DNA of 34,015 bases from a virus. A program made the position numbers and the translations under genes. The stretch is from IMG/VR virus record IMGVR_UViG_3300010885_029334, positions 1-34,015 of that record; one strand, given 5' to 3'. The notes under the pieces were generated by a model. That model saw only the letters and a list, made by a program, of their open reading frames with translations. It was not told where the DNA came from and made no database searches. How positions within the stretch are numbered: position 1 is the stretch's first letter; each line of letters opens with the position of its first letter. Positions 21,264 through 34,015 of this stretch are shown one piece after another.

Positions 21264-21489
21264 TGCTGCGGTTCCTTTTCGTGGTGGGTGTCTTGGGCTG
21301 CGTGTTGAGGAAGGCGACGTCCGGCACTTCCTTACGCAGCGAGGCGTATTCGAGCTGGAGTTTGGCGGTGCCGATTATCTTACCGGCTGCGTTACTGAGT
21401 TCCTTCGCCCGGTCGAGCGGCATGCGCTTACCTTTGACCGCTGAAAAAATGCCGATCAGTTCTTTTCTCAAATCAAGTATCGAGTTCAT
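21253..21489 (-). CDS. small hypothetical protein (78 aa)
   Basis: A basic 78-residue protein, mostly one or two helices (residues 3-57: MNSILDLRKELIGIF to QLEYASLRKEV), with a lysine/arginine/threonine-rich tail. AAAGGAG stands before the ATG at 21489. It overlaps the start of the SSB-like gene by 11 bases and the end of the repeat-protein gene by four. I do not recognise a characterised family. The position in the replication module suggests a small accessory or nucleic-acid-binding protein. Confidence 0.7.
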   Translation of the reverse strand: MNSILDLRKELIGIFSAVKGKRMPLDRAKELSNAAGKIIGTAKLQLEYASLRKEVPDVAFLNTQPKTPTTKRNRSNGK

Positions 21490-21962
21490 CTCTTCTCCTT
21501 TAGCATTCTATGAAGGTCCACCTGTAGTTGCTTCAGCGCGATAAGTTCTGGTGGTGCTCCGCATTTACCAAAATACCTGCGGGCGTAATATGCTGCTGTC
21601 TGAGAGCGCACTTTCTCCTTGTTCTTCAAGCACCACGCCGCCCTGTTCGCAGCTACTCGCTCTTTGTTCTTCAAGTGCCACGCCGCGTTTTTCGCAGCTA
21701 CTCGCTCTTTGTTCCTCGAGCGCCACGCCGCGCCAATCGCAGCGGCTCTCTCCTTGTTCTTCAAGCGCCACGCCGCGCTTTTAGCATTCAATTTCTCTCT
21801 GTTCTTCAAGCGCCACGCCGCCTTGTTCGCAGCTACTCGCTCCTTGTTCTTCAAGCACCACGCCGCGCTACTCGCAGCTACTCTCTCCTTGCTCCTCGAG
21901 TACCACGCCGCCTTGTTCGCAGCTATTCGCTCCTTGTTCTTCTCGGGATTCGCGTACGGCAT
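21486..21962 (-). CDS. 15-residue tandem-repeat protein (158 aa)
   Basis: After a short lead, the protein consists of seven clear copies of a 15-residue unit with consensus AAWxLKNKERVAANx, plus a degenerate copy at each end. A unique C-terminal domain follows (about residues 110-158, YARRYFGKCGAPPELIALKQL). The units are strongly basic and helical with one Trp each, resembling the (N/K)KE-rich repeats found in some phage proteins next to homing-endonuclease-like folds. No nuclease motif is present. ATG 21962 is chosen because it overlaps the upstream stop as TGATG; an in-frame GTG lies one codon earlier. Nucleic-acid binding is inferred from charge. Confidence 0.7.
   Translation of the reverse strand: MPYANPEKNKERIAANKAAWYSRSKERVAASSAAWCLKNKERVAANKAAWRLKNREKLNAKSAAWRLKNKERAAAIGAAWRSRNKERVAAKNAAWHLKNKERVAANRAAWCLKNKEKVRSQTAAYYARRYFGKCGAPPELIALKQLQVDLHRMLKEKR
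21597..21911. repeat. 7 tandem copies of a 45-bp unit
   Basis: On the + strand, units resembling CTTGTTCTTCAAGCGCCACG repeat every 45 bases, seven times, in phase with the leftward reading frame. Each unit adds 15 residues, so gain or loss of copies keeps the frame open. A further degenerate unit precedes (21912-21956). The array is coding, has no spacer/repeat alternation, and is therefore not a CRISPR. Confidence 0.85.
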
Positions 21963-22363
21963 CACGCACTCGGTTTGCGAACAGATACAACGTACTCGGC
22001 ATCGACGTTCAATCCGGGCGGGAAGAGCTTCGGGTTTGCCTGCAGAAACGTAGACATGTTCCCTTGAGCTATGCGCTTCTCGAACAGGTCAAGCGCATCG
22101 TGCTCGCGGCAGAACTGCTTGAAGCTGTCCCAGTCCTGCGTGTAGTACCGGCGCTTCTCCTGCAGCATGATGGTACCCTGCAGCGTGTTGACCGACTTCA
22201 CGCCGAGGCGCAGCAGCTGCGTCTTGATTGCGTCGGCAACAACTTTGCGCTGCTCTTCCAGCGCGCCGTCCTCTGCCTCATACTTGTGCTTGAGTTCCAG
22301 CTGCGCTGCACGAATCTTTCTGTGCACCTTAGCCAGTCGGTCCAACGGGGCGTCTTCGCTCAC
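21962..22363 (-). CDS. conserved-looking phage protein, function unknown (133 aa)
   Basis: The first half (residues 5-50) is a charged coiled-coil helix. The second half has GTIMLQEKRRYYTQDW, FCREHDALDLFEKRIAQGNM and PPGLNVDAEYVVSVRK, a pattern I have seen in phage replication and recombination neighbourhoods without a demonstrated function. A coiled coil followed by a small alpha/beta domain recalls nuclease-inhibitor (Gam-like) or accessory proteins, but the similarity is not enough for a name. It starts with GTG at 22363 after AAAGGAG. Its stop overlaps the repeat-protein start. Confidence 0.75.
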   Translation of the reverse strand: MSEDAPLDRLAKVHRKIRAAQLELKHKYEAEDGALEEQRKVVADAIKTQLLRLGVKSVNTLQGTIMLQEKRRYYTQDWDSFKQFCREHDALDLFEKRIAQGNMSTFLQANPKLFPPGLNVDAEYVVSVRKPSA

Positions 22364-30056: not shown

Positions 30057-30304
30057 TTCATTGCTCCTCTTGTTTGTTGGTGATGCTCGACGAACCACTG
30101 CCTACCCTTTTCCGTACCCTTCAGACGGCACAGGGTGGCGCCGTCCTGCTCCTTGCACACACGCTCCAGATACCCCTCGCTCAACAGGTACCCGAGCACC
30201 CGGCCGCGCGTGCCGCTTCTTCGGTAGAACGCCTCGGGTCTGCCATCCACACGCGAGACGATCTCGCACAGCAGCCGCACCTGTTGCTCGCTCAGCGCTA
30301 CCAT
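30053..30304 (-). CDS. small winged-helix-like protein (83 aa)
   Basis: An 83-residue protein with helix-helix-strand layout: LSEQQVRLLCEIVSRVDG, then RGRVLGYLLSEGYLERV and LCRLKGTEKGRQWFVEH. This is the typical order of a winged-helix domain, in which the LLSEGYLERV segment precedes the wing and a TEKGR stretch follows. It probably binds DNA and may regulate early genes. Weak ribosome-binding site; seven-base overlap with the DUF3150-like gene and four with the DUF3310 gene support translational coupling. Confidence 0.68.
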   Translation of the reverse strand: MVALSEQQVRLLCEIVSRVDGRPEAFYRRSGTRGRVLGYLLSEGYLERVCKEQDGATLCRLKGTEKGRQWFVEHHQQTRGAMK

Positions 30305-31173
30305 GAGAGCTTCGACAGCACGCTGTCCACGCTCTGCTTCACCTCGGTACGCACGTTCAGGTTCTTGCGAAGCTCATCAATAGCCACCCCGGAGATGGCA
30401 CTTTGCAACTGGGCACGGGCCATCTCGATATCCGGATCAGCGGTGATGTTCAAGTCTTTCACCAGATCGGTCAGCTCCAGCCCCCACTCAAGCACTGAGT
30501 CGTGCAGACGCCGGCCCTTCTCAGTACCATCCACGATGTCCACCGTCAGGCGCTCTGACATGCGGTGCAGGTGCTCACGCAGCAAGTCACGCACGTAGTT
30601 CTTGGCGGCATCCACCCGCTCCGCAGCAACGCGCTCGAGCTGCGCCGTGAGTTCCGCCTGTGCCTCCTGCCCCACCTGCACACGCCAGTCACCTGATGTG
30701 GGCACCGGCAGGTAGCTGACACCCACGCTGAACTTCTGCCTCACCGAATCAACGGATGGGAATTCGCTCCGATCGAACATGTCCCCCAAGGCAAGCGCTT
30801 GGGCCGTGATGAGCGTGGGGTAAATCGTGAGGAAGTCCTCCACCAACGTGTTGAACGTGAGGCACTCGCTGTCTATCCACTGGTTGAAGGTGCGAAAACG
30901 TGTGCTTGGCAGTAGCCGGATGCCGCTGTCGGACCACGGCATGGTCTGCGTGTACATCTTGGTGCGCATCGCGCTCACGTGCTGGCTGATTACTTCCAGC
31001 TCACTGCGCCCGGCAAGCAGGTTCTTGTTGACACGCGCTGCGTCCCGGGCGGCTGCGCCTTTGGTGCTCACCACTTCATCGGTGGTTGAGCGGTCGAGTT
31101 TCCGTGCAGACCACACACACGCACGAAATTCCACAAGCATCGCGCACGTTTCAATTCCGTATTGGGTACTCAT
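30298..31173 (-). CDS. DUF3150-like helical protein associated with MoxR-VWA (291 aa)
   Basis: A 291-residue, mainly helical protein without membrane segments. Residues about 60-110 (HVSAMRTKMYTQTMPW, LLPSTRFRTFNQWID) and the long coiled coil after about 180 (QEAQAELTAQLERVAAERVD) resemble DUF3150-type phage proteins, which I recall being encoded beside AAA ATPases. Here it lies two genes downstream of the MoxR ATPase, directly after the VWA gene and its repeat gene. A substrate or adaptor role for the MoxR-VWA pair is inferred from position. AAGGAGAAG precedes the ATG at 31173. The family name is tentative. Confidence 0.68.
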   Translation of the reverse strand: MSTQYGIETCAMLVEFRACVWSARKLDRSTTDEVVSTKGAAARDAARVNKNLLAGRSELEVISQHVSAMRTKMYTQTMPWSDSGIRLLPSTRFRTFNQWIDSECLTFNTLVEDFLTIYPTLITAQALALGDMFDRSEFPSVDSVRQKFSVGVSYLPVPTSGDWRVQVGQEAQAELTAQLERVAAERVDAAKNYVRDLLREHLHRMSERLTVDIVDGTEKGRRLHDSVLEWGLELTDLVKDLNITADPDIEMARAQLQSAISGVAIDELRKNLNVRTEVKQSVDSVLSKLSW

Positions 31174-31492
31174 TTGCTTCTCCTTGTATTGTAGTTGGTG
31201 GTGTTATTGATTCTGAGAACACGTGACGCAGCATGGCGAGCGTCGGGTTGTCCAGCTTGTAGCCGTAGCCGTAGCCGTAGCCGTAGCCGTTGCCGTCGCC
31301 GTTGCCGTCGCCGTCGCCGTAGCCGTAGCCGAAGCCGTAGCCGTAGCCGAAGCCGTAGCCGTAGCCGTCGCCGTCGCCGTAGCCGTAGCCGTTGCCGTTG
31401 CCGTTGCCGTCGTTGCCGTCGTTGCCGTCGTTGCCGTCGTTGCCGGTGCCGTTGCCGGTGCCGGTGCCGGTGCCTCTTAGTAGATGCAGCAC
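31151..31492 (-). CDS. Gly-Tyr hexanucleotide-repeat protein, copy A (113 aa)
   Basis: From a GTG at 31492, just after the VWA stop, the frame runs through about 35 G-x dipeptides (x = T, N, D, Y, F), including four GND tripeptides. The frame then enters a unique tail, KLDNPTLAMLRHVFSESITPP, and stops at 31151, overlapping the next gene's start by 23 bases. Every x codon ends in C, so the DNA is a near-perfect hexamer array. All frames are open through the repeat, so the frame choice rests on the open tail and gene spacing. The same tail occurs in copy B at the window end. Function unknown; a low-complexity, possibly phase-separating or structural protein is conceivable. Confidence 0.5.
   Translation of the reverse strand: MLHLLRGTGTGTGNGTGNDGNDGNDGNDGNGNGNGYGYGDGDGYGYGFGYGYGFGYGYGDGDGNGDGNGYGYGYGYGYKLDNPTLAMLRHVFSESITPPTTIQGEANEYPIRN
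31203..31284. repeat. direct repeat DR-A, matching DR-B at 33899-33980
   Basis: 78 of 82 bases match DR-B, in the same orientation, with 71 uninterrupted identical bases (31214-31284 equal 33910-33980). It covers the 3' end of Gly-Tyr gene copy A and the start of its hexamer array. Confidence 0.92.
31261..31474. repeat. hexanucleotide low-complexity array (copy A)
   Basis: About 36 units of six bases (AGCCGT, TGCCGT, CGCCGT, AGCCGA variants) plus four nine-base CGTTGCCGT-type units. Variation is limited mostly to one base per unit. All six reading frames stay open. Length is likely to vary by slippage in multiples of three. Confidence 0.9.
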
Positions 31493-31496
31493 ACCC

Positions 31497-32708
31497 CTAC
31501 CCCAGCGTGCTGTCGATGTGCAGCACCTTCCCCTGCTGCGGGCGGAACCGCGGGTTATCGACGACACCCCACAGCTGCGGGATACTCATCGCCGTCGACG
31601 ACCCATCGAGATCACCGTCTGTCAGCCACACGACCGCCTTGGGGTTGTATCGTTTCTCGGTCATGTATGGCGGGATGCAACCGGGGCGTGTGCCACCCCC
31701 GCCGACTGGCTTCAAGAGCTTGCCGATCTCATGGTAGTTGCGCGGGAAGAACACCTGATCCCCGCACACCGCAGTATCCCACCACAGTATGCGCACCCAC
31801 TCGGGCTTCGCATTGTGGCAAAGCTGCGCGATCTCCCCGAACACCACGGGGTAGACCGACCCCATCGAGCCTGAAGTATCACACGCGATCACGATCCCCC
31901 CTGTTGACTCGCTGAAGTGCGAGGGCATCACGAACCCAAGTGCCATGAAGCGCTTGTTGGGCGGGCAGTAACGCGAGTAGTCATCCCCCTCGGTGATGCT
32001 GGAGAAAAACTGCGCAAGCGGATCACGCCAGTTGGTGCGGCGCTCGGCAACCATCTTGTCCAACGCACGGTTGGCGCTCTTGTTACCGGGGATACTGCGC
32101 GCCACGATGTGGCCCTGTGCCACGGCCTCATCGACGGCATGCTCAAGCACCTTCGCTTCCTCTACAGAGAGGGGCGCAGCACGGTGCCCATCGAACGTGC
32201 CTCCTTTTGCGCTACCTCCTGCGCTCCCGCCGCTACCTCTTCCGGACTTCGCGCTCTGCAGAAGATCGCGCAGCACCTCGATGCACGACATGCCACGGTA
32301 CTTCTCGTCGAAGCATATCGGTATCGGAGGGCGCTCGGCAAAGACTTGCGCGGTGTCCATCTCGTCGATCATCAGGTTGACAACGAAGTCAAGCGCCAGA
32401 CCAAAGAGTTCCGGGTGCTTCTCGTTCACATCCCGGTACAGGGTGCAGTGCTTGAGCGCCTTGTGAAAGTTCTCATGCAGTACCACCCACCGGGTCTGTC
32501 TCATAGACAAACTGTCCATGAACTCGCGCCCGTAGAACGCATCACGCCCGTCGGTTGCCGCCGTAGGCAGGCCGTCCACCACGTGTGCCTCCCCCATACA
32601 TACCACGCCGGAGAGCAGCGCGAACTCCGGATGTCGCATGATGTCGATGGTGGAAGCCACGAGCCTGTTCTCCACCGACATGTTCCGCCAGCTGTGTTCG
32701 GAAGCCAT
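31497..32708 (-). CDS. VWA-domain protein with N-terminal metallopeptidase-like domain, DUF2201-like (403 aa)
   Basis: The N-terminal half has VVLHENFHKALKH (H78, E79, H82), an HExxH helix, followed by LALDFVVNLMIDE as in the DUF2201-type metallopeptidase-like domain. A Gly/Ser linker (about 155-172) leads to the C-terminal VWA-like domain with the metal-ion site CDTSGSM (D277, S279, S281). Such proteins pair with MoxR AAA ATPases as substrate-binding chaperone partners, the RavA-ViaA arrangement being a known example. Here the MoxR gene is directly upstream with eight bases between. TTAGGAG precedes the ATG at 32708. The target of the pair in phage infection is unknown. Confidence 0.9.
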   Translation of the reverse strand: MASEHSWRNMSVENRLVASTIDIMRHPEFALLSGVVCMGEAHVVDGLPTAATDGRDAFYGREFMDSLSMRQTRWVVLHENFHKALKHCTLYRDVNEKHPELFGLALDFVVNLMIDEMDTAQVFAERPPIPICFDEKYRGMSCIEVLRDLLQSAKSGRGSGGSAGGSAKGGTFDGHRAAPLSVEEAKVLEHAVDEAVAQGHIVARSIPGNKSANRALDKMVAERRTNWRDPLAQFFSSITEGDDYSRYCPPNKRFMALGFVMPSHFSESTGGIVIACDTSGSMGSVYPVVFGEIAQLCHNAKPEWVRILWWDTAVCGDQVFFPRNYHEIGKLLKPVGGGGTRPGCIPPYMTEKRYNPKAVVWLTDGDLDGSSTAMSIPQLWGVVDNPRFRPQQGKVLHIDSTLG

Positions 32709-32716
32709 GTCAACTC

Positions 32717-33841
32717 CTAAAGAAAGATGTGGTTTTCACGCAGGAGATCGGTGAATGCAGCCACCGAGCAGAAGCTTGCTACTTTCGGTGAGCCTGCCAC
32801 CGTGTTGCACATCATGGCCTGCATCTCCTTGCGCATGCGCTTCACGTAGATGGTCACGGCCTCGATCTCCGGGCGGCTGGCTGCCCTGCTCACGAACTGG
32901 AACAGCTGGATGACTTGGGCCGTGGGGTTCTTGGTAACCGGTGCGCCCCCCGGATCAGCAATGACCAACGCATAGTCGGTGATGTCCTGCTCGAACTTCA
33001 CGAACGCGTTCAGCGTACCGGCGCACGAGCTACCCAGCGCACCGCACAGCGCAGCGAACATCGTTGCGTCATCCAGTTCGGTCTTGCATTTCACGATGTC
33101 ACTTGCCGCATGCAGCGAGCGCGGGCTGGCGTACCCATCCTGCTCGCTACGCGGGTTGAAGATGTACGGGTTCTCCTTCGATAGATCAATTCCTCCTTTG
33201 TGGAAGCTGCCACCCGGCTCGTAGTCCAAGAACGAATGCATCACCCGATCATTTTGGTGAACGAAAGCCATGACAACCGGGTCGATGCCGGCGTCTTCTG
33301 CCCACTTCAACCACTCGGTGGCAGTAGGCTTCCGCATCCTGACCACGATCAGCCTGTTACGCAGGTGCGCTTGAAGCGTGTCGCCCAACCCCTCGACGCC
33401 GAGGTTTGTGCACCCGAACACGATGCTCCCTTCGGGCAGGTGGTAGTTACCTACACGTCTTTCGTAGATGATGGGGGCCAGCACGTTCTTGATGTATTGC
33501 GGCGCCTTCAGCACCTCATCGAGACAGATGACAGAAGGAACGGAACCCGTTGTACCACGGTGGTTGTTCGCGTTCACACCGAAGCGCTCGTTGGGCAGCT
33601 CGCGCGATACGCCCATCACCTTGTCGATATCCGGCATCCATACCGAGCCGTCGGAGAGTTGCGTGCAGTCGATCGGATCGACCATGTTGTACCCCCTGAA
33701 CTGGGGCAGCGCCTTCATCTTCCAGAAGATCGAGGTCTTGCCTATACCGTTCTCCCCCTGTACGAGGACAGTGCGGTTCGGGCCTACGCTTGCGATCAGG
33801 TTCACGATCTGGCCGAAAGAAAGAAATCCTTGGATATCCAT
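32717..33841 (-). CDS. MoxR-type AAA+ ATPase (374 aa)
   Basis: Walker A GENGIGKT (29-36), Walker B VICLDEV (D108, E109), sensor 1 GCTNLG (N146) and an arginine-rich HLRNRLIVVRMR segment (about 160-172) mark a MoxR-type AAA+ ATPase. The C-terminal lid region continues to 374. It forms an operon with the VWA gene, the usual partner that delivers substrates or metal-dependent adhesion. AAAGGAG precedes the ATG at 33841. Phage MoxR-VWA pairs have no settled function; remodelling of virion, host or defence proteins has been proposed for related systems. Confidence 0.9.
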   Translation of the reverse strand: MDIQGFLSFGQIVNLIASVGPNRTVLVQGENGIGKTSIFWKMKALPQFRGYNMVDPIDCTQLSDGSVWMPDIDKVMGVSRELPNERFGVNANNHRGTTGSVPSVICLDEVLKAPQYIKNVLAPIIYERRVGNYHLPEGSIVFGCTNLGVEGLGDTLQAHLRNRLIVVRMRKPTATEWLKWAEDAGIDPVVMAFVHQNDRVMHSFLDYEPGGSFHKGGIDLSKENPYIFNPRSEQDGYASPRSLHAASDIVKCKTELDDATMFAALCGALGSSCAGTLNAFVKFEQDITDYALVIADPGGAPVTKNPTAQVIQLFQFVSRAASRPEIEAVTIYVKRMRKEMQAMMCNTVAGSPKVASFCSVAAFTDLLRENHIFL

Positions 33842-33879
33842 GTGCTGCTCCTTTGAATTTAGTTGTTGTGGTTGGTACT

Positions 33880-34015
33880 TCAGGTGATCGTCTTGCAGGT
33901 TATTGTGGTTGAGAACACGTGACGCAGCATGGCGAGCGTCGGGTTGTCCAGCTTGTAGCCGTAGCCGTAGCCGTAGCCGTTGCCTTTGCCGACGTAGCCG
34001 TTGCCGTAGCCGTAG
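33880..34015 (-). CDS. Gly-Tyr hexanucleotide-repeat protein, copy B (partial, 5' end beyond window)
   Basis: The visible C-terminal 44 residues are a Gly-Tyr/Asn repeat (YGYGNGYVGKGNGYGYG) followed by KLDNPTLAMLRHVFS, then STTITCKTIT and a TGA at 33880-33882. The tail before the last ten residues is identical to copy A, but the final residues differ. It lies just upstream of the MoxR gene in the leftward array, with 38 bases between. The 5' part is outside the window, so length and start are unknown. Frame choice carries the same caution as for copy A. Confidence 0.5.
   Translation of the reverse strand, partial: YGYGNGYVGKGNGYGYGYGYKLDNPTLAMLRHVFSTTITCKTIT
33899..33980. repeat. direct repeat DR-B, matching DR-A at 31203-31284
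   Basis: Same-orientation copy of DR-A with 71 uninterrupted identical bases (33910-33980). Divergence is confined to a four-base block at 33906-33909. Together the repeats bracket the MoxR and VWA genes. Confidence 0.92.
33957..34015. repeat. hexanucleotide low-complexity array (copy B, cut by window end)
   Basis: Four AGCCGT units followed by TGCCTTTGCCGACGT-type variants and further AGCCGT/TGCCGT units. The array continues past position 34015. Confidence 0.85.

Follow-up and report, generated by a model that had tools for sequence, protein, structure and literature searches.

Paired Gly-Tyr repeat genes around an N4-like MoxR/VWA module in a viral contig, and the association of such genes with a predicted Sm-like protein across phages

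The window, that is, the whole stretch of DNA analysed, is a full IMG/VR record (linear, 34,015 bp) that contains, close to one end, two direct repeats whose longest exact match is 71 bp (31,214–31,284 and 33,910–33,980, no strand assigned; 2,696 bp from start to start). In a longer register of 96 bp (31,203–31,298 and 33,899–33,994) their identity is 93 %. Two minus-strand genes sit between the repeats, coding for a VWA protein (31,497–32,708) and a MoxR-type ATPase (32,717–33,841), which is the arrangement reported in the initial annotation: two identical copies in the same orientation enclosing the MoxR and VWA genes. Reading of the minus strand also bore out its statement that each repeat is the 3′ part of a gene for G-X dipeptides, with the tail KLDNPTLAMLRHVFS and differing end residues. 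Both copies run ...GYGYGYGYKLDNPTLAMLRHVFS and then diverge (ESITPPTT... and TTITCKTIT), so the identity of the repeats ends before the stop codons. The low-complexity array accounts for around 20 of the 71 bp, and the remainder is unique sequence, far beyond what is expected by chance. The repeat locus showed no DNA similarity to phage records, and searches with Rfam and PADLOC gave no match. Elsewhere in the window (21,486–21,965, minus strand), a 45-nt tandem repeat with seven in-register copies encodes a motif of ca. 15 aa (AAWRLKNKERVAANK-like) in a separate repetitive protein.

The Gly-Tyr repeat (GY) gene that includes the first repeat (copy 1; 31,151–31,492, minus strand) is a G-X dipeptide array gene with a short unique leader and tail, coding, in this order, for the leader MLHLLR, G-T/G-N, D-G-N and G-Y/D/N/F repeats, and the tail KLDNPTLAMLRHVFS. 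The frame stays open until a stop at 31,151, thereby extending over the beginning of the next gene. Its start is probably the GTG at 31,492, situated four bases past the VWA stop codon; the listed ORF is of 138 aa, and its residues upstream of this GTG would correspond to out-of-frame VWA sequence. A programmed frameshift from the VWA gene into the GY frame was considered and is not needed, since the end of the VWA protein matches that of its relative. The array itself (31,259–31,474, minus strand) consists of hexanucleotides, (GGCNAC)n, specifying G-X dipeptides, plus a short stretch of 9-nt units (D-G-N), and its GG-codons are all GGC, compared to 34 % GGC in the large genes of the window. 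Only the 3′ part of copy 2 is available (33,880–34,015, minus strand, ending ...YGYGNGYVGKGNGYGYGYGYKLDNPTLAMLRHVFSTTITCKTIT), because the contig end cuts it inside the array; its start and its upstream neighbour thus lie beyond the available sequence. Contig breaks are expected at such arrays. The possibility that copy 2 is a mis-assembled copy 1 was ruled out by its different array (YGYGNGYVGKGNGY...) and different downstream flank.

The MoxR-type AAA+ ATPase is N4 gp24-like (phrog_1297, E 1.2e-38) and has the Walker A motif GENGIGKT, whereas the VWA protein is an N4 gp25-like cochaperone with an N-terminal metallopeptidase domain, matching Pfam PF13203 (DUF2201_N) and PF09967 (DUF2201), both over cut-off; its HExxH motif can be read directly in the sequence as HENFH (residues 78–82). 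The profile phrog_1314, named 'HNH endonuclease', also matches this DUF2201 protein, and its label looks wrong. A third gene (30,298–31,173, minus strand, 291 aa) is DUF3150-like, being 54 % identical to a protein from locus L005 that passes the Pfam DUF3150 model (PF11348) with 25.7 bits for a cut-off of 24.9; the 291-aa protein itself did not match Pfam DUF3150. This gene lies beside MoxR/VWA in most relatives. A tblastn search with MoxR found matches in 163 phage records, related VWA genes are likewise present in many such records, and the homologues from Escherichia phage Pollock are annotated as 'N4 gp24-like' (MoxR) and 'N4 gp25-like' (VWA). Two alignment-based scans yielded 150 relatives of the module, in most of which the three genes occur together in an order that varies. 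MoxR, VWA and the DUF3150-like gene are a known N4-like module, and its MoxR/VWA pair is ordinary for this phage group. A MoxR protein with a metallopeptidase-vWA cochaperone has also been described in jumbo phages (PMC7824862). As a candidate for an N4-type virion RNA polymerase, the window contains a 2,429-aa ORF that gave no match to PDB sequences and whose PHROG matches are all of unknown function.

GY arrays were then searched in viral contigs independently of MoxR, using a pattern of six GGNNAY hexamers, which found at least 120 stretches and indicates that these arrays are widespread in phages. With our definition of a G-X array, we gathered 97 loci comprising those of the scan, eight from an earlier pattern, the window and locus L137; 95 of them are pattern-derived and come from the matches listed, which are a part of the whole set. 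Among the loci listed, the array of a typical GY protein is preceded by a short leader and followed by a short tail, and 21 of the 97 contain two or more GY ORFs. In five loci (L186, L226, L245, L266, L276) the GY proteins extend into a C-terminal domain (like GLKSLNxxxVYxIDGVPTII...AKGYIL), and two others (L014 and L008) have large tandem clusters of nine and seven GY-like ORFs, by our count, with shared leaders or tails, upstream of which no DUF6948-type gene was found. GY arrays are sometimes missed or annotated in the wrong frame: gene25 of Chlorobiaceae phage CV-1-33 (L291:4280-4525) has been annotated in a different frame (MAMAMALAMAL...), and the array of PhiPLPE (L290, from position 1,200) has no annotation.

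An all-against-all comparison of the ORFs flanking the GY loci listed revealed two large families of neighbours, present in 35 and 34 loci, always encoded by the same strand as the array and in most cases located immediately upstream of it. The two are homologous subfamilies (hhalign probability 96.8, E 2.5e-10); subfamily 1 passes Pfam DUF6948 (PF22253) with 76–108 bits, and members of subfamily 2, which includes those of L137, L281 and Rheinheimera phage Barba, are below the Pfam cut-off or do not match, their link to DUF6948 resting on the profile comparison. HMMs built for both subfamilies found a DUF6948-superfamily gene in 72 of the 97 loci listed; in 67 it lies upstream, on the same strand and within 1.5 kb, in 65 of these within 200 bp, and the median distance from its end to the start of the array is 27 bp. 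Among the 30 loci listed without such an upstream gene, 14 have the array near a contig edge, including the window. Clustering at 80 % identity divides the 72 genes into 68 clusters, so the association does not come from one phage counted repeatedly. Conversely, among the MoxR/DUF3150 relatives the gene occurs in one of 150, L137, and in none of the 149 that lack arrays (Fisher p 5e-41 versus the GY loci listed), these controls being a single phage group. In the reciprocal test, a Gly-X array was located right behind the DUF6948-like gene in all six cultured lineages examined, namely those of Rheinheimera phage Barba, Rhodobacter phage RcapNL, Iodobacter phage PhiPLPE, Chlorobiaceae phage CV-1-33, Pectobacterium phage Koroua and Manatee Spring podovirus, the last of which is known from its sequence. 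The association is strong, even if synteny by itself shows no mechanism. Additionally, the window GY protein gives a low-complexity match to positions 61–131 of the profile phrog_18306 and DUF6948 matches its positions 154–231, so that this profile looks like a fusion of both genes, although its low-complexity part could attract any Gly-X protein.

The HMMs of both subfamilies found no DUF6948-superfamily gene in the 34-kb window, where the order is GY (copy 2)–MoxR–VWA–GY (copy 1)–DUF3150-like and copy 1 comes after VWA and lacks an Sm-like gene (the fold predicted for this superfamily, see below) at its side. Nevertheless, the order in both L137 and L281 is GY–Sm-like–GY–MoxR–VWA, from which we predict by analogy that the corresponding gene of the window would be situated just past base 34,015. 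Outside phages, DUF6948 was absent from 398 genomes of the phylum containing the Roseovarius match described below, with a positive control detected in seven of eight records, and appeared in three records of the plasmid collection. DUF6948-like matches in this collection include NZ_CP119142.1 and NZ_CP119140.1, filed as Neisseria gonorrhoeae plasmids, which at ca. 2.17 Mb have the size of chromosomes. A literature search, the scope of which left out most subscription papers, found no mention of DUF6948, no relevant papers on GY phage proteins and no earlier description of the pair.

In 11 of the 115 Barba genomes, mostly chosen for being different, the Sm-like gene showed 0–1 nt differences and the following ca. 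260 bp none, and the GY gene had nine alleles, differing by whole hexamers or by Y/N/D exchanges, always in frame. These alleles look like the result of hexamer shuffling and length change instead of targeted, DGR-like mutagenesis of adenines, which we had considered as a source of the variety in X codons. Across the loci listed, Gly and X codons track genome GC (from GGATAT to GGCTAC) with the G-X peptide pattern being kept, and codons, in particular those for Gly, are homogeneous within arrays; these codon statistics are descriptive, because the GGNNAY pattern of the scan itself fixed part of the codon structure. Likewise, the variety of X codons versus the uniformity of the third position of Gly codons is explained by recent expansion as well as by selection.

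The window thus carries a low-complexity protein gene in duplicate. Direct repeats were not exclusive to it, since a gene beside MoxR is likewise enclosed by GY copies in L137 and L281: a 166-bp repeat of 96 % identity surrounds the Sm-like gene of L137 (8,937–9,102 and 9,560–9,725), and L281 contains exact matches of 47 and 43 bp. This makes recombination or duplication of GY-flanked cassettes, an idea put forward in the initial annotation, plausible from their sequence arrangement. The L137 repeat extends from the GY tail across an intergenic region as far as the next start codon, and this region includes two short, perfect hairpins (GCAGAG-GACTT-CTCTGC and GCTGGTG-CGGAT-CACCAGC), which might serve as a promoter or as a signal for processing. 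Taken further, the arrays could act mainly at the DNA level, with hexamers and direct repeats being hot spots of recombination through which small cassettes are moved or duplicated, and with incidental peptides, in agreement with the repeats around MoxR-VWA and around the genes in L137 and L281, the multiple copies in the 21 loci listed and the homogeneous Gly codons. However, the peptide pattern persists while codons change with GC, paralogous ORFs have leaders and tails in common and are located after the Sm-like gene in the same orientation, both genes seem to be joined into one protein in phrog_18306, and single-copy cassettes are common, all of which makes this explanation rather unlikely.

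The structure of one member of each DUF6948 subfamily was modeled by AlphaFold with pLDDT of 97.4 and 94.9. In these models, the upstream neighbour found in the relatives is an Sm-like small beta-barrel: nearly all the PDB matches listed by Foldseek were Sm/LSm for both subfamilies, with E-values from 6e-4 to 2e-2, and the top match of subfamily 2 was 3by7, an Sm-like structure from an uncultured source. The best Z values in VIA-align were 7.8 and 8.9, the tool cautioning that values of Z below 8 may stem from an arrangement that is common. Profile searches against PDB sequences gave a single weak Sm match for one subfamily (4xq3, E 0.34) and an unrelated weak match for a mixed alignment (5jqc, E 0.095). 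Owing to the modest E-values and the caution on Z below 8, we consider the Sm-like fold likely, and function does not follow from fold. With this fold, the Sm-like protein might be a regulator of the Hfq or Rof type that acts on its own, either an RNA chaperone or a Rho inhibitor, the GY protein being an accessory tail or decoy without an assembly function. Rof is presented in PMC11018626 as an Sm-like inhibitor of Rho, and folds of this kind are also present in further phage proteins of the structure library, some of them named Sm-like; against this, the close pairing of both genes across 68 independent clusters, together with the fusion-like profile, speaks for a contribution of the GY part, and we regard a lone regulator as unlikely.

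The initial annotation had suggested that the low-complexity proteins may be partners or substrates of the MoxR-VWA pair, a proposal that was not supported: arrays occurred in only one of the 150 module relatives (L137), the other 149 lacking them, and a strong MoxR homologue in three of the 95 pattern-derived GY loci listed (L281, L173 and L210), leaving 92 without one. It had also proposed to score how often the tail neighbours MoxR/VWA genes in phages; the exact tail KLDNPTLAM was absent from viral_contigs, its single match in genome_contigs was a Roseovarius site without a GY array, and tblastn of the tail in phages gave no match. With the DUF6948-superfamily gene as the regular neighbour, MoxR/VWA is then an occasional, not a regular, partner, and the partner idea is weak. 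GY proteins as substrates or adaptors of the MoxR/metallopeptidase-VWA machine, acting as assembly chaperone or protease and recognizing short C-terminal tails, are quite improbable: in spite of GY genes that adjoin MoxR, or are separated from it by one small gene, in L281, L173 and L137, are also close to it in the window and lie 2.1 kb away in L210, of a loose D-N-(L)-P-x-L-x-M shared, by eye, by the tails of the window (DNPTLAMLRHVF) and L137 (DDNLPALLMCMTLI), of the retained HENFH, and of the virion-assembly role proposed for phage MoxR-vWA proteins with a metallopeptidase domain (PMC7824862), the tails are not alike in L137, L281, L173 and the window, and L137, L281, L173 and L210 carry the DUF6948-superfamily gene as well.

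The reading that we prefer, at about even chances for the whole of it, is that the repeats of the window are two paralogous GY copies whose normal setting is a gene of predicted Sm/LSm fold followed by a GY gene, the pair working in ribonucleoprotein assembly. The cassette would consist of the gene for a small Sm/LSm-fold protein of the DUF6948 superfamily with the GY gene within tens of bases after it, and in the window two GY copies would flank the N4-like MoxR/metallopeptidase-VWA genes, with the Sm-like gene predicted beyond the contig end. Starting from the observed synteny, predicted fold, fusion-like profile and array variability, this reading presumes that the pair is expressed and that its products interact physically, bind RNA and assemble. 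The Sm-like protein would assemble into a ring that binds RNA, and the Gly-Tyr/Asp/Asn protein could be a multivalent 'sticker' chain that clusters rings and RNA, possibly giving rise in the course of infection to a condensate or other ribonucleoprotein assembly. By rapidly gaining and losing hexanucleotide units, the array would remain able to evolve in length and composition next to an unchanging Sm-like partner. More tentatively, and with a lower probability, the pair may constitute a previously undescribed, widespread phage system of an Sm-fold RNA-binding ring and a fast-diversifying Gly-Tyr protein, a bacterial-virus counterpart of assemblies of the RNA-granule type, which diversification of the array would tune against host factors or defence. 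If correct, this would place in a functional context the Gly-Tyr low-complexity ORFs found repeatedly, and without annotation, across phages and add a predicted Sm-like family to these viruses; the 115 closely related Rheinheimera phages from one host strain would then be a natural model for the evolution of a low-complexity protein and for its role towards a folded partner.

Regarding known systems, the MoxR and metallopeptidase-VWA proteins of the window belong to the same two families as gp24 and gp25 of N4-like phages (Schitoviridae); nearly all of these relatives lack GY genes, whereas the pair in the window is flanked by them. Both DUF6948 subfamilies have the same predicted fold as the Sm/LSm RNA-binding ring proteins, including 3by7, with an identity of ca. 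10–20 %. Eukaryotic RNA-binding proteins of the FUS or hnRNP type have low-complexity Gly-Tyr domains. These resemble the GY/Sm-like pair in placing a multivalent, Tyr/Gly-rich composition beside an RNA-binding-type fold, but the phage GY proteins have a strict G-X dipeptide periodicity and are encoded by a separate gene instead of forming a fused domain.
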